Assembly: GCF_029975155.1 (NCBI RefSeq)
Contig: NZ_JARKPQ010000245.1
Span: 1 to 44,256 of the forward strand
Reading direction: 5' to 3'
Length of the DNA: 44,256 nt
Source: Propionicimonas sp.
GTDB lineage: Bacteria; Actinomycetota; Actinomycetes; Propionibacteriales; Propionibacteriaceae
How positions within the stretch are numbered: position 1 is the first letter of the stretch; the number at the start of each line of letters is the position of its first letter. The position numbers and the translations under genes are program-made. Below are positions 23,728 to 33,104 of the stretch, one piece after another. A model generated the notes under the pieces. The model was given only the letters and a program-made list of their open reading frames with translations, was not told the origin of the DNA and made no database searches.

Positions 23728-24051
23728 ATGAGCGGATCGAACGGTCCCGACTACTCACCAGTCGGAGGCGGCTCCGGAGCCGCTGATTGTGCTTCATACC
23801 GTCGAGAAAAGCCGCTGCAAGCCCCCAACGGGGACGTCGTTCCGATGCTCAGGGTCGGCGATGTTCTCGACGTTGAGCTACAGGAAGATCCCGTCCTCGT
23901 GGTTGCGGTCGTGACCCCAAGCGGCCGCGAGGCGGGAGCCATCGTGCCCGACGGGCAGCTCATCTCATGCCTCCAGAACGGCGTAGCATTTTCCGCGACA
24001 GTCACGTCGATCCGCGGCGGGCATGTGATGTTCAGGATCGAAGCGACATGA
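23728..24051 (+). CDS. Small protein with Gly/Ser-rich N terminus and beta-barrel-like core
   Basis: 107 aa, unrecognised. It begins MSGSNGPDYSPVGGGSG, a flexible head exposing Ser-Gly after Met removal. The core LRVGDVLDVEL, VLVVAVVTPSGREAGAIVP, CLQNGVAFSATVTSIRGGHVMFRI reads as a small beta-barrel. ATG 23728 follows GAAGGG and its stop overlaps the next start (ATGA). Position between a glycosylase and a QueC-like enzyme makes it a candidate protein substrate: QueC-like enzymes of type IV CBASS and Qat systems are reported to attach a deazaguanine to the N terminus of a partner protein. That role here is a hypothesis. Confidence 0.65.
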   Translation: MSGSNGPDYSPVGGGSGAADCASYRREKPLQAPNGDVVPMLRVGDVLDVELQEDPVLVVAVVTPSGREAGAIVPDGQLISCLQNGVAFSATVTSIRGGHVMFRIEAT

Positions 24052-25265
24052 TCATAGGTGGGGGGACATATCGCGAGCAGGTTGACTCAATGCAGTACGC
24101 CGAAGATATCGGCGGGAGTGGATTCCGCGCTGCTGTGCTGCTATCCGGAGCCGGCGTCGAGTTAGTTTCCGCCGTAGAAGACGAGCTCTCTCCCCTCCTA
24201 GAGGGCGCTTGCCACGTATTGGGTATCGCCTGCAACAACGTCGGCAGGGATCGCCCGGTCGGGTTTCATTATCGTGCACCTTTTATCGAGCCTATCGTTC
24301 GCGGCCACTCGGCCATGTTCTCAACAAGGTTCGAGGTCTCGGGTGAACACGCTCTCGTATTTGGAGTCGTGGAACGTGGCGAACGACAGATCACGGCGAC
24401 ATCACTCGTATATGACCCGCAGTCCGCTGACGACATCCTTCTCACCGAGGAGACACCACCTTGGCGGACGCCAAGACACCTCGCCATTTGCGCCAATGCC
24501 ACCGAGACTCGCGCTTTGGGGGGCGCTGTCGATCTCGACGTTGCGGCACGTCTAGCGGCCGGCAAGCTGCGGGCGGACGCTGTCGTCACCAAGGCCGGCG
24601 CTCGCGGCTGCTTGGTCACCGAACCGAGGAACGAACGACAGACATGGGTTGGCGCACGTGCCACGTCCACGGTCAGCAAACTTGGCAGCGGTGATGTGTT
24701 CTCGGCAGCATTTGCTCAGGCGTGGCACGGAGGTGCTGAGCCGGTCGAAGCGGCCAGGTTCGCAAGCGCTACAACCGCGTGGTGGTGCGAAGGCAGCGGT
24801 CTCCGGCTCTCCGTAGCCGCTCTCGCAGGTGAACTGCCGGACGCGGGCAGCGACGAACTCGACAACGCAGGACGCTCCCCGATGGTCTATCTCGCCGGAC
24901 CGTTCTTCACGATCGAGCAGCGTTGGCTCATTGACCAGTGCAAGGACTTCCTCGAAGACGCTGGCGCGGAGGTGTTCAGCCCGGTACACGAGATTGGTCT
25001 CGGTGGGCCCGAGGTCGCCGAAGCCGATCTTACGGGTCTGTCGAAGTGCGATGCCGTGTTTGCGATCCTCGACGGTTGGGATCCGGGCACCCTGTTTGAG
25101 GCTGGTTGGGCGACGGCACATGGCATCCCGGTCGTGGCTGCCGGTGGCATCGGATACCAAGGGGGAGCAACTATGCTGCTCGGAACCGGCGCCGAGCATC
25201 ACGCGGACTACGTAACGGCGATGTACCGCGCAATCTGGAGGGGGCTTCGTGTCGAACGGGCATGA
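24048..25265 (+). CDS. PfkB-like kinase fused to nucleoside 2-deoxyribosyltransferase
   Basis: A 405-aa two-domain protein. Residues 1 to about 255 are a PfkB/ribokinase-like fold, with KLGSGDVFSAAFAQAW carrying the catalytic Asp216; the usual N-terminal GG signature is only partly kept. Residues about 278-400 are a nucleoside 2-deoxyribosyltransferase: VYLAGPFF (LAGPF 282-286), SKCDAVFAILDGWDPGT and FEAGWA with nucleophile-type Glu351. The NDT family moves deoxyribose between bases; PfkB enzymes phosphorylate sugars or nucleosides. Beside preQ0-type enzymes this suggests making or breaking a deazaguanine (deoxy)nucleoside and phosphorylating it. It overlaps both neighbours (ATGA upstream, 17 bp downstream). 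Confidence 0.85.
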   Translation: MIIGGGTYREQVDSMQYAEDIGGSGFRAAVLLSGAGVELVSAVEDELSPLLEGACHVLGIACNNVGRDRPVGFHYRAPFIEPIVRGHSAMFSTRFEVSGEHALVFGVVERGERQITATSLVYDPQSADDILLTEETPPWRTPRHLAICANATETRALGGAVDLDVAARLAAGKLRADAVVTKAGARGCLVTEPRNERQTWVGARATSTVSKLGSGDVFSAAFAQAWHGGAEPVEAARFASATTAWWCEGSGLRLSVAALAGELPDAGSDELDNAGRSPMVYLAGPFFTIEQRWLIDQCKDFLEDAGAEVFSPVHEIGLGGPEVAEADLTGLSKCDAVFAILDGWDPGTLFEAGWATAHGIPVVAAGGIGYQGGATMLLGTGAEHHADYVTAMYRAIWRGLRVERA

Positions 25266-25905
25266 GCACACCGTCACTTCAGAAGGATCGCTCCTCCTGT
25301 TCTCCGGAGGGCTCGACAGCACGGCACTCGCTGCGATCTATCGTCCAGCCCTCCTGCTTTTCGTTGACTACGGGCAGCGCCCAGCTGAACTCGAACGGCG
25401 CGCATCTCGCCAGGTCGCTGGCCTCCTAGAGCTCAGACTGGTAGAGGTGACGCTAGGAATCGATGCGTTCGGTTCGGGCTTGTTGCGGGAGGACGGTGGT
25501 GCTCAACCGAGTGCTGCCCCAAGCCCGGAGTGGTGGCCGTACCGAAACCAGTTCCTCGCAACCGCCGGTGCGGCAGTCGCGCTTCAGCAAGGGCTTTCCG
25601 CCGTTCTCGTCGGATCAGTCGCTCCTGACGGGGAGCGTCACCTCGACGGCACACCCGAGTTCTACGACCGCCTCGACGCCATCATCCGTTACCAGGAGGG
25701 CGCGATCAAGGTGCTCGCCCCCGGGATAGATCGCACCACAGAGGATCTCCTCCACGCATCGGCGCTCGATGAGAAAGTGCTTGGGTGGACGGCGTCCTGT
25801 CACCGCTCAAATCTACCCTGCGGGCAGTGCCCAGGCTGCTGGAAGCGCATGCGGATCCTCGCATCGCTTGGCATCGAGGGATACGAGTGGGGCGTGGCAC
25901 CATGA
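25249..25905 (+). CDS. QueC-like PP-loop enzyme (Qat/CBASS-type variant)
   Basis: A 218-aa ATP-pyrophosphatase. The PP-loop is FSGGLDSTALAA (residues 18-29). YRNQFLATAGAAVA matches the QueC core, and a zinc site is formed by SCHRSNLPCGQCPGCWKR. Canonical QueC converts 7-carboxy-7-deazaguanine (CDG) to preQ0 and carries a Tyr-Pro-Asp-Cys-Arg motif; here that place reads GERHLDGTPEFYDRLDAI. The Cys is missing, as in the divergent QueC-like proteins of defence operons. This suggests that CDG is activated but the final product is not ordinary preQ0. GTG 25249 is inside the preceding gene. Confidence 0.85.
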   Translation: MSNGHEHTVTSEGSLLLFSGGLDSTALAAIYRPALLLFVDYGQRPAELERRASRQVAGLLELRLVEVTLGIDAFGSGLLREDGGAQPSAAPSPEWWPYRNQFLATAGAAVALQQGLSAVLVGSVAPDGERHLDGTPEFYDRLDAIIRYQEGAIKVLAPGIDRTTEDLLHASALDEKVLGWTASCHRSNLPCGQCPGCWKRMRILASLGIEGYEWGVAP

Positions 25906-26273
25906 GTGACGACGACCTTGTTGTGAAGGTCAGTCAGGAGTTTGAGTTTCACGCGGCCCACTTTCTGCCCTGGCATCCTGGAAAGTGCGCGAATGTCCAT
26001 GGACACTCCTACCGCGTCCAAGTCGAGGTCGATGGCGCTCTGGACGGAAGGGGGGTTGTCATCGACTTCGACGAACTGGCAGCGATGGTGTGGGACAAAG
26101 TCATCGAACCACTGGACCATACCCTCCTCAACGATCACCTCGACAACCCGACCGCGGAGCGAGTCGCGATTCATATCCTTCGGAAAGCCGAAGCATCCGG
26201 AGTGGAACTGAGTGAGGTTCGCGTGTGGGAAACCGCCAGGTCGCTCGCCGTAGTCCGCCGCAGCGCGCGATGA
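25902..26273 (+). CDS. queD: QueD, 6-carboxytetrahydropterin synthase
   Basis: 123 aa. It converts dihydroneopterin triphosphate to 6-carboxytetrahydropterin, the precursor of CDG. Zinc ligands are H17 and H20 region (FHAAH), and HGHSY (33-37); the catalytic Cys29 lies in HPGKCANVHGH. VIDFDELAAMV and LDHTLLNDHLDNPTAE complete the family blocks. It overlaps the QueC-like stop and the QueE start by four bases each. The upstream enzyme FolE is not in the window, so GTP cyclohydrolase must come from elsewhere. Confidence 0.93.
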   Translation: MSDDDLVVKVSQEFEFHAAHFLPWHPGKCANVHGHSYRVQVEVDGALDGRGVVIDFDELAAMVWDKVIEPLDHTLLNDHLDNPTAERVAIHILRKAEASGVELSEVRVWETARSLAVVRRSAR

Positions 26274-26971
26274 CCACGCTCTTTGTCAACGAGATCTTTC
26301 GCTCTCTCCAGGGCGAAGGCCCCAGTCTGGGCCAGCCAGCAGTCTTCCTCCGGCTAGCCAATTGCAACCTCGCCTGCTCGTGGTGCGACACACGCTTCAG
26401 CTGGGACTGGGAACAGGTCGATCCCGAAGAGGAACGGCACGAGACGGGAACCGCGGAACTCGCCTCCCAGATCATCGATAAACTGGACGGAATCGACCTA
26501 CTCATCATCACCGGCGGCGAGCCACTGCTTCAGCAAGGCGGCATCCTGGAACTCATAACGGTCCTGAGGATCAGCGCGCCGAACCTGCGGGTCGAAGTTG
26601 AAACGAACGGGACTATCCCACCCACGCCTCGATTCGCGGACGCGATCGACCTTTTCGTTGTGAGCCCGAAACTCGCCAACTCCTCCGTACACGAGGGACG
26701 CAGACTACGGCGTCGCGCACTCGCGTCGTTCCCACCGGATCGGTCCGCCCTGAAGTTTGTCGTCACCCAGCCACGAGAACTGCAGGAGGTCGCCGCTGTA
26801 CGGGCGATCGTCGGTCTACCACCTGATCGCACGTGGATCATGCCTGAAGGCACCACGCCCGACTCCGTACTACGCGGGATGCGGGTACTCACCGATCCCG
26901 TCGCTCAGCTCAGGTACAACTTGTCTCCCAGGCTGCACGTCCTGATCTGGGGTGACGTGCGCGGCAAGTAG
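26270..26971 (+). CDS. queE: QueE, 7-carboxy-7-deazaguanine synthase (radical SAM)
   Basis: 233 aa. It rearranges 6-carboxytetrahydropterin to CDG. The 4Fe-4S cluster motif is C32-NLA-C36-SW-C39, with the preceding IFRSLQGEGPSLGQPAVFLRL typical of QueE and ITGGEPLLQ for SAM binding. It is the last gene of the island operon, with no further gene before the repeat. Together QueD, QueE and the QueC-like enzyme can supply a deazaguanine for the operon's own use. Confidence 0.93.
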   Translation: MTTLFVNEIFRSLQGEGPSLGQPAVFLRLANCNLACSWCDTRFSWDWEQVDPEEERHETGTAELASQIIDKLDGIDLLIITGGEPLLQQGGILELITVLRISAPNLRVEVETNGTIPPTPRFADAIDLFVVSPKLANSSVHEGRRLRRRALASFPPDRSALKFVVTQPRELQEVAAVRAIVGLPPDRTWIMPEGTTPDSVLRGMRVLTDPVAQLRYNLSPRLHVLIWGDVRGK

Positions 26972-28090: not shown

Positions 28091-28486
28091 GTGTCCGTGG
28101 CAGCACACTCGATCGCGACTACCCTCGACCCGGTCGACCCCACGATTCGCACCGCGGCGAGGGAACTAGCTGACCGCCTGGAGGACGACTCCGAGGTCGG
28201 CCGTGTCGTGCGCTCGATGCTCACCGACGTCGCCCACGGCGCGAAGGTCATTGTGTTGCGCTCCGAGGACGAGGTGACGCCGGCCCAAGCGGCCGAGATG
28301 CTCGGGGTGACCCGCCAGTTCGTCGACCGGCTCTGCGAGGACGAAGTCCTGCCATTCCGCCGACTGCCTGGTAGCCGGCATCGCCGCATCCGTGTGCAGG
28401 ACGTGGTCGACGTAGCAGCGGAGCGCGAGCAGCGTCGGGCTGGCGGCGACGCACTCCGGGCTGCGCTCGCCGACCTCAAGGCATGA
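28091..28486 (+). CDS. Excisionase-type HTH antitoxin of a PIN pair
   Basis: 131 aa. Residues 55-110 (EDEVTPAQAAEMLGVTRQFVDRLCEDEVLPFRRLPGSRHRRIRVQDV) form a MerR/excisionase-type HTH. The N-terminal helices (IRTAARELADRLED) may bind the toxin. GTG 28091, with a second GTG two codons later. Four bases separate it from the PIN gene. HTH_17-PIN pairs are a frequent actinobacterial toxin-antitoxin arrangement. Confidence 0.8.
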   Translation: MSVAAHSIATTLDPVDPTIRTAARELADRLEDDSEVGRVVRSMLTDVAHGAKVIVLRSEDEVTPAQAAEMLGVTRQFVDRLCEDEVLPFRRLPGSRHRRIRVQDVVDVAAEREQRRAGGDALRAALADLKA

Positions 28487-28490
28487 GACG

Positions 28491-29069
28491 GTGCCCCGCC
28501 TTCAACGGGTCTTCATCGATACCAACGAGTTGTACCCGTTCACGATCATGGACGTCCTGCTGACCTTGTCGGAGGACTTCCTGTTCACCTGGGCTTGGAC
28601 CGACGAGGTCCTCGACGAGTGGGAAGAAGTCATCGTTCGCGAGGGTCAGCGCACCGCCGAATCGGCCGCCTCAGTCGCCGCCGCCGTCCGCAAGCACTTC
28701 GGGCGCTATCGGATCGACCCGACGCTCTACCGGGGCAAGGCCACCGACGACCTCTCCCCCGACCCCGACGACCGCATCCACGCCGCCGCATGCATCCACG
28801 GCAGCATTGACGTGCTGCTCACCCGCAACACCAAACACTTCCGGGCACGGGCTTTGGCCGAAGCTGGCGTGAAGGTGATGGACTCCGACCAGTTCCTCTG
28901 CGCACTCCTCACCCGACGACCGAAGGCAGTCACCGAGTCGTTCACCCGCGCTTCGAGCGTCAAGAAGAACCCGCCAATCACGCCGGGCGAACTCGCAGAT
29001 CGCATCGCCACCGCGGGCACGCCGCGGTTCGCGGCACGCATCCAGCCGCGCCTGGCCGCCGCCTACTGA
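28491..29069 (+). CDS. PIN-domain ribonuclease toxin
   Basis: A 192-aa PIN domain. The acidic metal-binding residues are Asp10 in RVFIDTNELYPF, the DEVLDEWEEV segment, and DPDDRIHAAACIHGSIDVLLTRNTKHF. PIN toxins cleave RNA, often tRNA, which is notable because a tRNA array begins 550 bp downstream. It starts at GTG 28491, coupled to the antitoxin. The C-terminal 40 residues are a basic extension. Confidence 0.85.
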   Translation: MPRLQRVFIDTNELYPFTIMDVLLTLSEDFLFTWAWTDEVLDEWEEVIVREGQRTAESAASVAAAVRKHFGRYRIDPTLYRGKATDDLSPDPDDRIHAAACIHGSIDVLLTRNTKHFRARALAEAGVKVMDSDQFLCALLTRRPKAVTESFTRASSVKKNPPITPGELADRIATAGTPRFAARIQPRLAAAY

Positions 29070-29296
29070 CCGCGTGTCCTAATTCCAGGGGCCAAGCTGC
29101 ACCCAACGCAGACGCGATACTCAATACTCACGCAAGTGTGATGTCCAGATGAACGCACATGCGATACCTGACTGAATCGCGCTGGGCCACCTCTACACCG
29201 GGGAATAGCCAGACCAGGCAGCCCATCCGGGGCTGTCTCCGATTCGGCCGGTGCCGCACAGACGGAGTCCTGCGCTGGACGCGCTCACGGAGCGGA

Positions 29297-29331
29297 GTTG
29301 ACACAACCCCATGCGGCACCGCATCCTATAG
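29297..29331 (+). promoter_or_regulatory. Candidate promoter for the tRNA array
   Basis: TTGACA at 29297-29302, then CATCCT 18 bp on, overlapping TATAGG. The -35 is perfect, the -10 only approximate. Confidence 0.35.
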
Positions 29332-29373
29332 GGCTGGCCAACGGGGCCGGGGGAAGATCGAAAGGTCACGACC

Positions 29374-29514
29374 ATGTTGAGCATGCGGGGCATCGAGCTG
29401 CAAAAGCAGCTGCTCGTCGCGCTGCCTTGGCATGCCTATGTGGCCGGATCGTCCTTCGATGATCGCTTTGGCAAGCCGAGCACCCGAGTCGAAAACGGGC
29501 CGCCCCTGGGGTAA
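29374..29514 (+). CDS. Possible 46-aa small ORF
   Basis: Starts ATG 29374 after GAAAGG and ends TAA 29512-29514. It reads MLSMRGIELQKQLLVALPWH at the start. No family recognised; it could be an upstream leader peptide or chance. It lies between the candidate promoter and the first tRNA. Confidence 0.25.
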   Translation: MLSMRGIELQKQLLVALPWHAYVAGSSFDDRFGKPSTRVENGPPLG

Positions 29515-29542
29515 CCACGCATACGTGGACCCTGCACCACAG

Positions 29543-29579
29543 GAGCCGCCCACCGGGAAGAACCCGGACCGGGCGGCTC
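29543..29579 (+). other. Nested hairpin before tRNA-Trp
   Basis: Outer stem GAGCCGCCC / GGGCGGCTC with inner stem CCGGG / CCCGG. There is no T tract, so it is more likely a processing or stability element than a terminator. Confidence 0.45.
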
Positions 29580-29617
29580 TCGCCATTTCAGAGCATGTCG
29601 ACCAACAACTGAATCAT

Positions 29618-29690
29618 GCGGATCTAGCTCAACCGGAAGAGCAGCCGTCTCCAAAGCGGCAGGTTGGGGGTTCGAAGCCCTCGGTCCGTG
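29618..29690 (+). tRNA. tRNA-Trp (CCA)
   Basis: Full cloverleaf of 73 nt: acceptor GCGGATC/GGTCCGT, D-stem GCTC/GAGC, anticodon loop CTCCAAA, T-arm GGGGG-TTCGAAG-CCCTC, discriminator G. CCA is not encoded. First RNA of the array. Confidence 0.85.
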
Positions 29691-29801
29691 CGAAGTACCG
29701 CTCAACCCAGCGCGGGGCACCCGGTGGAAACGGGGCTCACTGTCACAAGGCCCGCGCAGGGGCGGTACGGACAACTCAACAGCGGGCACCCTCGCGGTGC
29801 G

Positions 29802-29901
29802 GTGCGGGAAGCCAACGGACGCCACGTCCGACCCGACACCGCCAAGCGCCCAGGACCAACCCTGGGATAAGCGGCCGATGACCACGGAAATCGGCCCGCA
29901 C
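29802..29901 (+). ncRNA. Compact structured RNA of unknown class, before hammerhead 1
   Basis: Terminal stem GTGCGGG / CCCGCAC closes four inner elements: CGGAC-GCCAC-GTCCG, CCGC/GCGG, CCCAGG-loop-CCTGGG, and CCGAT/ATCGG. It ends 17 nt before the first hammerhead. It is neither a tRNA nor a hammerhead; no class assigned. Confidence 0.4.
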
Positions 29902-29918
29902 GGGAACAACAAATATGA

Positions 29919-29988
29919 ATCGCCTGACGAGCCGGTGAGACTCCGGCGAAACCGCGCGCCCCTGTGGGGGCGCGGTCGCGGTCGCGAT
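29919..29988 (+). ncRNA. Hammerhead ribozyme 1 (type I)
   Basis: All core parts are present in order: stem I strand AUCGC, CUGACGA, stem II GCCGG-UGAGACU-CCGGC, GAAA, stem III beginning ACCGC and closing GCGGU, the GUC cleavage triplet, and the returning stem I strand. Two in-phase GUC choices exist: after 29977 (longer stem III, stem I with a G-U pair) or after 29983 (perfect AUCGC/GCGAU stem I). Ends lie in stem I, hence type I. Expected products are a 2',3'-cyclic phosphate and a 5'-OH. Confidence 0.88.
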
Positions 29989-30023
29989 GCGCGCAGGCCC
30001 CGGGGTGGGGCCGCGGTCCTTAC

Positions 30024-30095
30024 GCCTCTGGTGGACGATGGCCGTCCAGCCGCCCAGTAGGCGGCACGACCACGGTTCGATTCCGTGCGGAGGCT
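30024..30095 (+). tRNA. tRNA-like, anticodon reads AGT (Thr?)
   Basis: Cloverleaf: acceptor GCCTCTG/CGGAGGC, D-stem GGAC/GTCC, anticodon stem GCCGC/GCGGC with loop CCAGTAG, T-arm CACGG-TTCGATT-CCGTG, discriminator T. Position 33 is C instead of the near-universal U, and an A34 anticodon is unusual, so decoding is doubtful. Confidence 0.65.
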
Positions 30096-30099
30096 CGCT

Positions 30100-30175
30100 G
30101 CACCCGTAGCTCAGCGGAAAGAGCGTCTCCCTCCGAAGGAGAAGGCCCCAGGTTCGATCCCTGGCAGGTGCGCCA
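30100..30175 (+). tRNA. tRNA-Arg (CCG)
   Basis: Cloverleaf with loop CTCCGAA on stem TCTCC/GGAGA, D-stem GCTC/GAGC, T-arm CCAGG-TTCGATC-CCTGG, acceptor GCACCCG/CAGGTGC (one C-A mismatch), discriminator G and encoded CCA. Confidence 0.87.
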
Positions 30176-30176
30176 T

Positions 30177-30247
30177 GCCCCGGTCCGCCAACGGCGAGGC
30201 GACCTGTTCTCAGCCAGGCAATCGGAGTTCGACTCTCCGTCGGGGTA
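30177..30247 (+). tRNA. tRNA-Glu (CTC)-like
   Basis: Acceptor GCCCCGG/TCGGGGT, discriminator A, T-arm CGGAG-TTCGACT-CTCCG. The anticodon stem is CCTG/CAGG with an 8-nt loop containing T-CTC, so the loop is irregular. It begins two bases after the CCA of tRNA-Arg. Confidence 0.65.
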
Positions 30248-30252
30248 CGCAG

Positions 30253-30337
30253 GGAGGATCCAGCCGACTGGCGGCGGCACCCCGCTCGAAACGGGACTGC
30301 CCGAAAGGGCGTGGGGGTTCGACTCCCTCATCCTCCG
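30253..30337 (+). tRNA. tRNA-Ser (CGA)
   Basis: Perfect acceptor GGAGGAT/ATCCTCC, loop CTCGAAA on stem CCCG/CGGG, long variable arm GCCC-GAAA-GGGC, T-arm GGGGG-TTCGACT-CCCTC, discriminator G. Last tRNA before hammerhead 2. Confidence 0.85.
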
Positions 30338-30353
30338 CGCTGGTCGCGAGCAA

Positions 30354-30487
30354 ATCGCCTGATGAGCCGGTGAGACTCCGGCGAAACCGCCCGCCCTTCT
30401 CGAATCCGGAGCCACCGATCCACCGTCATCCCGGCGTTCGCCGGGATGACGGTGGATCCGGGTTGAAGGGTGCAGTCGCGGTCGCGA
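30354..30487 (+). ncRNA. Hammerhead ribozyme 2 (type I) with expanded stem III
   Basis: Stem I strand AUCGC, CUGAUGA, the same stem II as hammerhead 1 (GCCGG-UGAGACU-CCGGC), GAAA, stem III base ACCGC/GCGGU, cleavage triplet GUC ending at 30483, stem I return GCGA. Stem III is about 100 nt long: it contains CCCTTC/GAAGGG pairing and, at its tip, a 42-bp perfect palindrome. Same orientation as hammerhead 1. Confidence 0.84.
30417..30458. repeat. 42-bp perfect palindrome inside hammerhead 2
   Basis: Arms begin GATCCACCGTCATCCCGGCG and are separated by TT only. The GTCATCCCGG...CCGGGATGAC core is also found at 36941-37020, so it is a dispersed palindromic element that inserted in, or grew from, stem III. 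Confidence 0.85.
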
Positions 30488-30502
30488 GCGCTACCCAAAG
30501 CC

Positions 30503-30636
30503 GGCGTCGAGCCGGAGCAGATCGATCATCGCCTCTTACGCGCTAGGTTGCGGGTTCGAGTCCCGTCGTCCCTTCGGGGGACGTAGCTCAACTGGCAGAG
30601 CAAGCAGTATCGGTCAGCGCACACACGCTCGACGCC
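30503..30636 (+). ncRNA. Y RNA-like (YrlA-type) permuted tRNA mimic 1
   Basis: A perfect 10-bp outer stem (GGCGTCGAGC / GCTCGACGCC) encloses tRNA parts in permuted order: T-arm GCGGG-TTCGAGT-CCCGT, acceptor-like stem CGTCCC/GGGACG closed by a UUCG-type loop, then TA and D-arm GCTC-AACTGGCA-GAGC. Bacterial YrlA RNAs have this layout: a Ro60-binding stem in place of the anticodon arm and a looped acceptor stem. It begins 19 nt after the hammerhead 2 cleavage site and lies upstream of the Ro60-type gene. Confidence 0.8.
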
Positions 30637-30758
30637 CCAGCCGTCCGCGAACCGGAGGGGATCGGTTACCGGCTGAACACCACGCACGGCCGAGTTCGGG
30701 TAAGCCCGAGCGGCCTTCTTCACCGGTCCTCGCACCCACGTTCGCGGGCCCTCACGCC
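30637..30758 (+). other. Spacer between the two Y RNA-like elements
   Basis: No tRNA fold is visible. It holds one hairpin (30688-30715). Confidence 0.5.
30688..30715 (+). terminator. Hairpin between Y RNA-like elements
   Basis: GGCC...GGCC outer pairing with inner GTTCGGG-TAAG-CCCGAGC, followed by TTCTT. It could end the first Y RNA transcript or act as a processing signal. Confidence 0.4.
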
Positions 30759-30891
30759 GGTGTCGAGCCGGCACGCATCGGTTATCTCAATTGGCAGGAG
30801 CCGCGCAGGCTGCGCGGAGGTGCGGGTTCGAGTCCCGCCGGGGACGGGTTCCGTCCCTGTAGCTACCGGTACGGATCACACGCTCGGCACC
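30759..30891 (+). ncRNA. Y RNA-like (YrlA-type) permuted tRNA mimic 2
   Basis: Outer stem GGTGTCGAGC / GCTCGGCACC (10 bp, one G-U) parallels element 1. Inside are a CCGCG/CGCGG hairpin, T-arm GCGGG-TTCGAGT-CCCGC, and acceptor-like stem GGGACGG-GTT-CCGTCCC, followed by a weaker D-arm-like GTAGCTACCGGTACGG. It ends 35 nt before the TROVE start codon. Confidence 0.7.
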
Positions 30892-30926
30892 CCAAACCGC
30901 TCATCGATCACAGAAAGGAGACGAGC

Positions 30927-32546
30927 ATGAACGACCTCTACGCGGCCATCACCACGCGCCGCACTCCCCAGTCGGCACCCGCCGACCGTCGGCAGGAGCG
31001 CAACCACGGCGGCGGCTACGCCTTCACGGTGACCGAACTCGAGCGGGTCAAGCGCTTCCTCATCCTCGGCTCCGACGCGGGCACCTTCTACCAGGGCGCC
31101 GGCGAGCTGACTCGCGAGAATGCACAGGCCGTCCTCGACCTCGCCGCCACCGACGGACGGGCGCTGGTCGACCTCATCGTCGACGTGTCGGTCGCCGGCA
31201 AGGCTCCCAAGCAGGACCCGGCGCTGCTCGCGCTGGCGATCGCTGCGGCCGCCCCCGACGCGGAGGTTCGCGCGTACGCGCTGGAGAAGCTGTCGGACGT
31301 CGCCCGCACGGGCACGCACCTGCTGACCTTCGCGCGCCACGTCGAGCAGTTCCGCGGCTGGGGCCGCGGCCTCACGCGGGCCGTCGGTGCCTGGTACACC
31401 GGCAAGCCGGTCGACCAGGTCGCCTACCAGGCAGTCAAGTACCGGCAGCGGAACGGCTGGTCGCACCGCGACCTGCTGCGCCTGGCGCACCCGGTGACCG
31501 TCGAGCCGGCCCGCAAGGCCCTGTTCGACTGGATCGCCGGACGCGAGGCCGCCGGTCTGCCGCGGATCGTCGAGGGCTACCTCAAAGCGCAGGACGCCGC
31601 GGCGGACGTCCCGGCGCTCGTCCGCGAGTACCGCCTCACCTGGGACATGCTCCCGGACGAGGCGCTCACGCAGGCAGCCACCTGGGACGCCCTGCTGGAC
31701 GTCGGCATCCCGCAGACGGCGCTGCTGCGCCAGCTGCCGCGACTCACCCGCCTCGGTGTGGTGGGCGCACTGGGTCAGGGACGCACCGCGGAGATCGCGG
31801 CGCAGCTCACCGACTCCGAGCGGCTGCGGAAGGCCCGCGTCCACCCGGTGAACCTGCTCGTGGCGCTGCGGACGTACGCGTCCGGCCGCGGCACGGGATC
31901 GGTCTGGGAGCCGGTGGCGGCGATCGTCGACGCCCTCGACGCGGCCTTCTACAAGGCGTTCGAGTTCGTCGAGCCGGCAGGCAGGCGCACCCTCGTCGGC
32001 CTCGACGTGTCCGGGTCGATGGGAGCGCCGATCGACCGCACCTCGCGGATCACCGCCCGCGAGGTCGGTGCCGCGATGTCGCTGGTGGTCAAGGCGACCG
32101 AGCCGCGGGCCGAGGTGTACGGCTTCACCGCCGGAACGAGCCTGCGGGGACGGCTCTGGGGCTGGGGCTACGGGGGCGCGACCGCGTTCACCGACCTCGG
32201 CATCTCGCCCCGGCAGCGACTGGACGACGTCGTACGCAAGGTCTCCGACCTGCCGTTCGGCGCGACCGACTGCGCCCTGCCGATGACCCAGGCTCTCTCC
32301 CGAGGGCTGAAGGTCGACACGTTCGTCGTCATCACCGACAACGAGACGTGGCACAGCGACGTCCACCCGCACCAGGCGCTGCGGCAGTACCGCGAGCAGA
32401 CCGGCATCCCGGCCAAGCTCGTGGTCCTCGCCCTGACGCCCACGCGGTTCACGATCGCCGATCCCTCGGACGCGGGCATGCTCGACATCGCCGGATTCTC
32501 CAGCGACGTCCCGCAGCTCGTGACCGGGTTCTCCCGCGGGTTCTGA
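30927..32546 (+). CDS. rsr: TROVE-domain protein, Ro60/Rsr orthologue
   Basis: A 539-aa Ro60-family protein. The N-terminal about 340 residues form the TROVE HEAT-repeat ring that binds RNA 3' ends in the hole and Y RNA on the rim. The C-terminal von Willebrand A domain has the MIDAS DVSGSM (Asp360, Ser362, Ser364) and FVVITDNETWHSD. Bacterial Rsr binds Y RNAs, joins PNPase, and helps with RNA decay and stress survival. ATG 30927 follows AAAGGAG. Y RNA-like elements lie just upstream and tRNAs on both sides, so its RNA partners are encoded here. RtcB/RtcA, which accompany Rsr in some bacteria, are not in the window. Confidence 0.93.
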   Translation: MNDLYAAITTRRTPQSAPADRRQERNHGGGYAFTVTELERVKRFLILGSDAGTFYQGAGELTRENAQAVLDLAATDGRALVDLIVDVSVAGKAPKQDPALLALAIAAAAPDAEVRAYALEKLSDVARTGTHLLTFARHVEQFRGWGRGLTRAVGAWYTGKPVDQVAYQAVKYRQRNGWSHRDLLRLAHPVTVEPARKALFDWIAGREAAGLPRIVEGYLKAQDAAADVPALVREYRLTWDMLPDEALTQAATWDALLDVGIPQTALLRQLPRLTRLGVVGALGQGRTAEIAAQLTDSERLRKARVHPVNLLVALRTYASGRGTGSVWEPVAAIVDALDAAFYKAFEFVEPAGRRTLVGLDVSGSMGAPIDRTSRITAREVGAAMSLVVKATEPRAEVYGFTAGTSLRGRLWGWGYGGATAFTDLGISPRQRLDDVVRKVSDLPFGATDCALPMTQALSRGLKVDTFVVITDNETWHSDVHPHQALRQYREQTGIPAKLVVLALTPTRFTIADPSDAGMLDIAGFSSDVPQLVTGFSRGF

Positions 32547-32615: not shown

Positions 32616-32690
32616 GGATCCCAGGCTCTGTCGGCGGAGCGTCCGGTCGAAGCCCGGAAGGGGGCGGTTCGATGCCGTCGGGATCCACCA
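32616..32690 (+). tRNA. tRNA-Phe (GAA)-like
   Basis: Perfect acceptor GGATCCC/GGGATCC, D-stem GCTC/GAGC, anticodon stem TCCGG/CCGGA with loop TCGAAGC (GAA), T-stem GGCGG/CCGTC, discriminator A and encoded CCA. Position 33 is C rather than U. Confidence 0.78.
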
Positions 32691-32691
32691 G

Positions 32692-32766
32692 GTCCTCATG
32701 GTCCAACGGCAAGGACATCTGCCTTCCACGCAGATGGTGCGGGTTCGACTCCCGCTGGGGACTCCA
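32692..32766 (+). tRNA. tRNA-Gly (TCC)
   Basis: Acceptor GTCCTCA/TGGGGAC, D-stem GTCC/GGAC, anticodon stem TCTGC/GCAGA with loop CTTCCAC, T-arm GCGGG-TTCGACT-CCCGC, discriminator T and encoded CCA. Confidence 0.85.
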
Positions 32767-32767
32767 A

Positions 32768-32841
32768 GCTCCTGTATCCCAACTGGTAGAGGACGCCGGC
32801 TCAGACCCGGTGCGTTCCCGGTTCGAATCCGGGCGGGAGTA
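32768..32841 (+). tRNA. tRNA with CAG anticodon (Leu?) and short variable loop
   Basis: Acceptor GCTCCTG/CGGGAGT, anticodon stem GCCGG/CCGGT with loop CTCAGAC, T-arm CCCGG-TTCGAAT-CCGGG, discriminator A. CAG reads Leu CUG, but the variable loop is only about 5 nt (GCGTT), whereas Leu tRNAs normally have a long arm. Charging identity is uncertain. Confidence 0.75.
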
Positions 32842-32871
32842 CGACGCGGCCTGGCAACGGGTCGTCCGACC

Positions 32872-32941
32872 GGATGTGGGGCATTGGCGGCCCGCCTGCC
32901 TTGGGTGCAGGAGCAAGGGGGTTCGACTCCCGTCACGTTCG
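32872..32941 (+). tRNA. tRNA-Pro (TGG)-like
   Basis: Acceptor GGATGTG/CACGTTC with two wobble pairs, short D-arm GGC/GCC, anticodon stem CCTGC/GCAGG with loop CTTGGGT, T-loop TTCGACT on a T-stem with one mismatch, discriminator G. Confidence 0.7.
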
Positions 32942-32951
32942 GGTCAGCCAA

Positions 32952-33033: not shown

Positions 33034-33104
33034 CACGTTGTTGTTCCCGCCCGTGAGGGTGCCCGGTCTGCAACCGAACCGGGGATTCGTGGCTAGATGT
33101 AGGT

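Follow-up and report, generated by a model that had tools for sequence, protein, structure and literature searches.

Cleavage by hammerhead ribozymes (HHRs) leaves 5′-OH and 2′,3′-cyclic phosphate ends, the type of substrate used by RtcB, and in retrozymes paired hammerheads give rise to circular RNA. In bacteria, tandem hammerheads have been described with demonstrated cleavage, and one set flanks ardA (excerpts of PMC3088659). Two hammerheads have also been predicted in a mycobacterium near a ribonucleotide reductase gene (excerpts of PMC4524478). The association of hammerheads with phage genes is known while its function is open (excerpts of PMC10085705 and PMC6155905), and the latter review treats the role of prokaryotic hammerheads as an open question. 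A search of the open-access literature exclusive of bioRxiv found no article with hammerheads in tRNA arrays as its topic in title or abstract.

The window, that is, the whole 44,256 nt contig of Propionicimonas sp. analyzed here, harbors two same-sense HHR cores (29924-29952 and 30359-30387) flanking four tRNA-like genes. Both elements display the features of a type I hammerhead, namely CUGANGA, GAAA, an NUH site, three helices and an open stem I; their stem II loop is UGAGACU, and the downstream GUC is flanked by strands completing stems III and I. Hammerhead 1 (29916..29991, + strand) has the core CTGACGA at 29924, the stem II strands GCCGG and CCGGC, and a GAAA ending at 29951. It is followed by two GTCs in tandem, placing the predicted cut between 29977 and 29978 or between 29983 and 29984. 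Hammerhead 2 has the core CTGATGA at 30359, the same stem II and a GAAA ending at 30386, and its GTC at 30481-30483 predicts a type I cut between 30483 and 30484; by script, no acceptable stem III was found for the earlier GTC at 30475-30477. The stretch between the predicted cuts (29984-30483) measures 500 nt. The pair of same-sense hammerheads around a four-tRNA cassette of about 500 nt, which the first-pass annotation had proposed, is present as written, including the identical stem II. That annotation knew of no described bacterial system with this layout, and no counter-example was found in the same open-access literature. The predicted cut of Hammerhead 1 lies 40-46 nt upstream of the first cassette tRNA, and none of the type I cuts predicted in the window coincides with a tRNA end.

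Two matches to the core pattern were seen in the window, whereas 100 shuffles gave 0.04 on average. A script for the complete hammerhead geometry returned exactly these two elements, compared with 0.0225 (loose) or 0 (strict) per shuffle in 400 dinucleotide shuffles. In the 5.0 Mb genome, only these two cores lie within 3 mismatches of the 29-base pattern. The first-pass annotation had named two outcomes that would count against it, one of them a covariance model scoring both elements below threshold; formally this is what Rfam gave, as both score under gathering, but dedicated models find all four bacterial elements considered below. Nine of the ten viral loci carrying the same stem II string are also below gathering at that hammerhead, and only L030 (type III, 49 bits) clears it at the hammerhead that recruited it; the Rfam bar therefore says little for this subgroup.

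As the elements were below gathering with the Rfam models, we built our own: R1 from Hammerhead 1 and the two elements of the congener G482, R2 from 22 matches, and R3 exclusively from viral sequences (18 matches). Hammerhead 2, which had been left out of R1, was recovered by it with 69.6 bits (E 4.7e-16 in 244,039 bases; 35.7 bits under the stricter genome-search filters), and searches of the own genome with R1 and R2 found only the two elements. R3 scored Hammerhead 1 at 72.4 bits (E 2.1e-23), the G482 elements at 74.5 and 72.9 bits and Hammerhead 2 at 43.2 bits, where the match takes the wrong 3′ half because of an insertion. The viral seeds of R3 were located with a 17-base string of core plus stem II or with a less strict pattern, then retrieved and aligned using R1; their agreement in stem II is therefore partly a product of the selection, and the seeds depend to some extent on R1. 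The 17-base string occurs in 20 viral loci, 14 of which have a complete hammerhead at the string by script. In the viral seed set, 16 of the 20 pairs have changed on both sides and 95.2% of the cells are paired (73.2% after shuffling), in an alignment fitted to the structure, which favours pairing.

Hammerhead 2 had earlier been read as type I. The type I geometry holds (30351..30491, + strand), and a hammerhead with an extended stem III is the predicted fold of the isolated 137-nt RNA 30352-30488, but this reading was incomplete, as a second substrate strand of type III lies upstream. This strand, GGUC-GCGA-GCAAA-UCGC with the predicted cut after GGUC, is located directly 3′ of tRNA-Ser and pairs with ACCG in stem III. 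The type III reading spans 30338..30392 (+ strand; RF00008 34.3 bits, E 1.5e-5, or 2.7e-5 at genome scale) and predicts a cut after C30345, 7 nt past tRNA-Ser. The first HHR of G482 has a corresponding site, GCGGUA-GCGA-AGAAA-UCGC cut after GCGGUA, with a five-pair stem III and 38.6 bits; both scores are below the gathering threshold of 48.5. The type III site follows tRNA-Ser in both genomes, and the differences are compatible with pairing (GGUC versus GGUA; CUGGU versus GCGGU against ACCGC). Downstream of both cores lies the type I substrate GCGGUC-GCGA, cut after GCGGUC. An upstream NUH strand and a closed stem I hairpin sharing the same core were found for these two elements only, and Hammerhead 1 and the second G482 HHR have a downstream substrate strand only. 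At the level of sequence, Hammerhead 2 and the first G482 HHR are each one core with substrate strands on both sides. We know of no description of a single core serving two cleavage topologies.

Folding predictions were mixed. The isolated 61-nt type III RNA of G482 folds as a hammerhead; neither the second G482 element nor the 59-nt type III RNA of Hammerhead 2 on its own reaches its energy minimum as a hammerhead. The z-scores range from -0.4 to -1.6 except where a palindrome dominates. This dispersed repeat of 30 bases (30423..30452, unstranded), which has 53 places in the genome at ≤3 mismatches, lies in stem III of Hammerhead 2, and pairing on either side of the insertion is preserved. 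As long as the upstream hairpin is part of the RNA, as in the 171-nt Hammerhead 2 and 125-nt G482 contexts, type I stem I is given a probability of 0.0. For Hammerhead 2 as it would be once cut at the type III site, the value is 0.2. In the 71-nt RNA used for the type III reading of Hammerhead 2, stem II also has a probability of 0.0. As the longer contexts favour other pairings, sequential cutting of Hammerhead 2 is a step that we infer.

All parts of the array lie on the + strand in the order tRNA-Trp, a non-coding stretch, Hammerhead 1, four tRNA-like sequences, Hammerhead 2, two Y RNA-like RNAs, Ro60 and four tRNAs. The array starts with a tRNA-Trp(CCA)-like sequence (29618..29691; ARAGORN, Rfam tRNA 55.7 bits), followed by a non-coding stretch of ~220 nt that is strongly conserved in the alignment with G482 (29692..29913). 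This stretch ends with GGGAACAACAA and matched no Rfam family at E up to 10; it is perhaps a structured RNA of the array. In the cassette, ARAGORN called a tRNA-like sequence with the anticodon AGT (Thr; 30024..30096), in which position 33 is C by eye, tRNA-Arg(CCG) (30100..30175; Rfam 63.2 bits), a tRNA-like sequence with an 8-nt anticodon loop (ctca; 30177..30248) and tRNA-Ser(CGA) (30253..30338; RF01852 38.3 bits, below the gathering threshold of 47), the G482 counterpart of which adjoins its first HHR. Only tRNA-Arg clears Rfam tRNA gathering. In the earlier assignment of the cassette as AGT, Arg(CCG), Glu(CTC) and Ser(CGA), the supposed tRNA-Glu is the sequence with the 8-nt loop, which is not that of a normal tRNA-Glu. 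A second block called by ARAGORN encodes tRNA-Phe(GAA), Gly(TCC), Leu(CAG) and Pro(TGG) (32616..32943), and a Ser(GCT)-like sequence is found at the end of the array. No promoter- or terminator-like site was found in a scan, so that a single transcript is an assumption.

Several observations concern the surroundings. The sequence GGGAACAACAA at 29902-29912 and its complement TTGTTGTTCCC (33038..33048, + strand) bracket the array in the window, and the same pair does so in G482. Directly upstream of the array, a gene pair encoding HTH_17 and PIN_3 domains is toxin-antitoxin-like (28091-29069). Further upstream, a gene run (23967-26971) encodes a nucleoside deoxyribosyltransferase, QueC, a PTPS protein, which we take to be QueD-like, and a radical SAM protein, presumably QueE-like, suggesting deazaguanine chemistry near the array.

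Downstream of Hammerhead 2, Y RNA-like RNA 1 (30498..30642, + strand) has the end stem GGCGUCGAGC/GCUCGACGCC and a tRNA-like domain with its acceptor closed by a UUCG loop, as judged from its fold and from RF02553 YrlA, which matches 30542-30606 (41.3 bits, E 7e-8, gathering 69). A possible second Y RNA-like RNA with a similar end stem (30757..30894, + strand) rests on its fold and a by-eye comparison and gave no Rfam match. The TROVE protein gene characteristic of Ro60/Y RNA RNP loci follows: Ro60 (30927..32546, + strand; TROVE + vWA, PF05731 and PF25045) is of phage type. It matches 343 phage records, best that of Microbacterium phage FuzzBuster (57.6%), compared with 43.9% for the best match in the plasmid collection and 50% in the genome collection; no close relatives were found in IMG/VR. 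In a Gordonia phage, Ro60 adjoins a long tRNA array. The affinity of Ro60 to actinophage proteins and this phage arrangement point to a phage derivation of the array. Ro60 itself was rejected as a marker of hammerheads: four other congeners bearing TROVE have neither tRNAs nor HHRs in the surrounding 6.9-12 kb, and the Ro60 loci of Solirubrobacter and Armatimonadetes have a tRNA or YrlA and no HHR.

G482 carries two cores on one strand, 886 nt apart. Its order is a tRNA-like sequence named Leu(aag) by ARAGORN, the conserved stretch, tRNA-Ser, an HHR, tRNA-Met, a 156-aa ORF, an HHR, tRNA-Arg(ACG) and the Ser(GCT)-like sequence also seen in the window, here missed by ARAGORN. Each of the type I cuts predicted in G482 lies 18-26 nt upstream of a tRNA. 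When 29200-30025 is aligned with G482, long blocks are identical and Hammerhead 1 falls at the homologous site; a tRNA-Ser directly before this site is present in G482 only. G482 gave no TROVE match. These comparisons indicate, from sequence, that the layout is kept between the two genomes while the cargo differs.

The layout is rare, being found in 2 of 30 genomes of the genus. In the family sample, nine genomes passed E 0.01 and 2 of 197 were confirmed, the eight matches in the other seven being weak model matches with no complete hammerhead by script. Ten genomes passed E 0.001 in the class sample, where 1 of 394 was confirmed and the other nine were likewise weak model matches in which the script found no complete hammerhead; the pattern search of the phylum sample gave 1 of 296. 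In the class and phylum samples the window genome is the sole listed carrier, and G482 is absent from their listed genomes. RF00008 matches in G214, G394 and G434 (26-29 bits) were discarded, as the script found no complete hammerhead and the loci contain no tRNA, and so was a 17.3-bit match in a Curtobacterium plasmid without a complete hammerhead by script. By script, no hammerhead was present in three tRNA-array plasmids of actinobacteria or in three phage regions with Ro60, where the models gave weak matches no higher than 18.1 bits.

Viral tRNA arrays with HHRs occur in IMG/VR. We collected 57 loci, 43 by a pattern of T-loop then core and 14 by a pattern of core then TAGCTCA. Complete hammerheads are present at 19 of the 57 viral cores where shuffling of loops and flanks predicts 0.13, and a strict HHR lies within 400 nt of a same-strand tRNA in 14 of 57; both counts are inflated by near-duplicate loci (L076/L088 and L122/L124, by eye). 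In most of these 14 loci, no called tRNA follows or the distance to it exceeds 100 nt. Scored independently with R3, the viral elements linked to tRNAs reach 15.4 to 36.1 bits.

The predicted cut falls exactly at a tRNA 5′ end for five HHRs on four contigs (two in L083, and one each in L193, L077 and L118). In L083, one strand of ribozyme stem I (GCCAG or GCGGG) doubles as the 5′ strand of the acceptor stem for two tRNAs; the first of these is uncalled by ARAGORN and was identified by eye through its acceptor, T-loop and ACCA. A pair of hammerheads surrounds tRNA-His in L077. In L077 and L118, the predicted cut is at G-1 of tRNA-His, one base before the ARAGORN start; G-1 is the normal 5′ end of tRNA-His. 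In L193, it is at +1 of tRNA-Tyr, but exact spacing was a requirement of the search pattern behind this locus, which therefore cannot count as an independent case of exactness. The pattern that gave L077 and L083 left the downstream spacing free, and the one that gave L118 allowed 40-70 nt. Among 87 loci, an ARAGORN tRNA lies ≤60 nt downstream of a type I cut in four cases (L077, L083, L118 and L193), all exact when tRNA-His is counted from G-1 and with the spacing of L193 forced. L086 is a counter-example, with an ARAGORN-uncalled tRNA-like sequence by eye ~12 nt after the predicted cut. In 31 further viral loci from a spacing pattern for cuts at tRNA +1, no HHR was found beside a tRNA. Named phages gave no match to the exact-cut loci, and the matches of Hammerhead 1 listed among phage records all have E of 2 or worse.

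Other viral contigs show further arrangements. Hammerheads in L076 (585-700), L088, L095 (7457-7560) and L099 are followed by a shared non-tRNA sequence, ACCTTGTGGTGTA. In the contig L018 (6706-7011), a hammerhead lies ~240 nt from an HDV-like ribozyme (RF02682, 45 bits). The 12-kb viral piece L023 contains five same-strand type I hammerheads ~0.9-1.4 kb apart, and R1 gives more.

We consider it probable that the HHRs serve as self-cleaving punctuation of a phage-type array of tRNAs, Y RNA-like RNAs and Ro60, separating a tRNA piece from a Y RNA/Ro60 piece. Co-transcription, cleavage and a role in processing are what we infer from the sequences, the models, the conservation in G482 and the viral counterparts. 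Hammerhead 1 as type I would cut upstream of the cassette to leave a leader of 40-46 nt, so that RNase P would still be needed there. In its type III form, Hammerhead 2 would cut 7 nt after tRNA-Ser and so free a tRNA precursor of 362 nt (29984-30345); its type I cut would fall immediately before the first Y RNA and define where the Y RNA/Ro60 RNA begins. If both cuts were made, the ribozyme itself would be removed. Maturation of the tRNA ends would presumably be left to RNase P and 3′ nucleases. In some viral arrays, the hammerhead is placed so that it would cut exactly at the tRNA 5′ end, perhaps replacing RNase P. A stronger form of this proposal, to which we give rather less than even credence, is that HHRs are a tRNA-processing system of mobile arrays: the viral HHR would borrow the acceptor strand as stem I and cut the mature 5′ end instead of RNase P, and the two-sided core here would use both its type III and its type I site and so remove itself from between tRNA-Ser and the Y RNA/Ro60 unit.

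The viral loci also bear on whether the HHRs are simply inherited phage punctuation, carried along with the array without a specific link to tRNAs. Viral HHRs with the same stem II do occur away from tRNAs, many other viral hammerheads precede protein genes with several per contig, the Ro60 here is of phage type, and HHRs near prophage genes have been described (excerpts of PMC3088659 and PMC6155905). We nevertheless regard this as unlikely, since both genomes keep HHRs at tRNA boundaries despite different cargo, the type III site is directly 3′ of tRNA-Ser in both, and exact tRNA-end cuts are predicted in viral arrays. Even less probable, and the least so of the readings weighed here, is that the elements are decaying remnants devoid of cleavage activity: the palindromic repeat in stem III of Hammerhead 2, the unusual tRNAs and the competing folds could be taken in this way, but CUGANGA, GAAA and the NUH site are intact in all four bacterial elements and pairing survives around the palindrome insertion.

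The first-pass annotation went on to suggest that a defined tRNA RNA is released and may be circularised. Release is predicted by the bracketing, but circularisation by RtcB did not find support, as RtcB (PF01139) was not found in the 404-contig draft assembly of the own genome (completeness 100, contamination 8.3). A stable tRNA-bearing circle or decoy, made from the excised 500-nt or 362-nt RNA by RtcB or by hammerhead self-ligation, would have in its favour that hammerhead ends are established RtcB substrates and that the 5′ end from element 1 (GCGAU) pairs with AUCGC of element 2, so that the geometry permits self-ligation. RtcB matches are present in 7 of 30 genus genomes (one a fragment), G482 included, and a Salmonella operon holds Ro60, Y RNA and RtcB together (excerpts of PMC7790460). 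Against it, besides the result for RtcB in the own genome, the bracketed piece of G482 also contains an ORF, and a ligated circle would re-form a cleavable hammerhead. Circularisation is conceivable in principle, but we judge it quite improbable. A retrozyme reading fails on copy number, as the genome has only two such cores, both at this locus.

Returning to the punctuation reading, the placement at tRNA boundaries in two species and the predicted exact cuts at viral tRNA 5′ ends would give prokaryotic hammerheads a concrete and testable job. RNase P leaves a 5′-phosphate, whereas a hammerhead leaves a 5′-OH; such tRNAs would therefore be chemically marked and independent of RNase P, which could matter in phage takeover or in defence by anticodon nucleases.

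Among known systems, the locus resembles plant and animal retrozymes, as these are generally understood, in that two same-sense hammerheads delimit one RNA, and differs from them in that no dispersed ribozyme copies exist here and RtcB was not found in the genome. With bacterial Ro60/YrlA loci (excerpts of PMC7790460) it shares a YrlA-like RNA beside the Ro60 gene; unlike in those, a hammerhead and tRNAs precede, and the genome lacks a detected RtcB. The dense, partly irregular tRNA genes in a mobile setting are like the tRNA array units of actinobacteria, phages and plasmids (excerpts of PMC5966550 and PMC12803027). The words ribozyme and hammerhead are absent from the main texts of these two papers, and the three plasmid tRNA arrays scanned by script differ from the window in having no hammerhead. 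The closest likeness in the ribozymes themselves is to bacterial and phage type I hammerheads (Perreault 2011; excerpts of PMC3088659), with which they share the core, stem II, the open stem I and the GUC site, and which likewise occur in tandem on one polycistronic RNA. Those tandem hammerheads, as excerpted, flank protein genes, whereas here tRNAs are bracketed and one of the cores has substrate strands on both sides.
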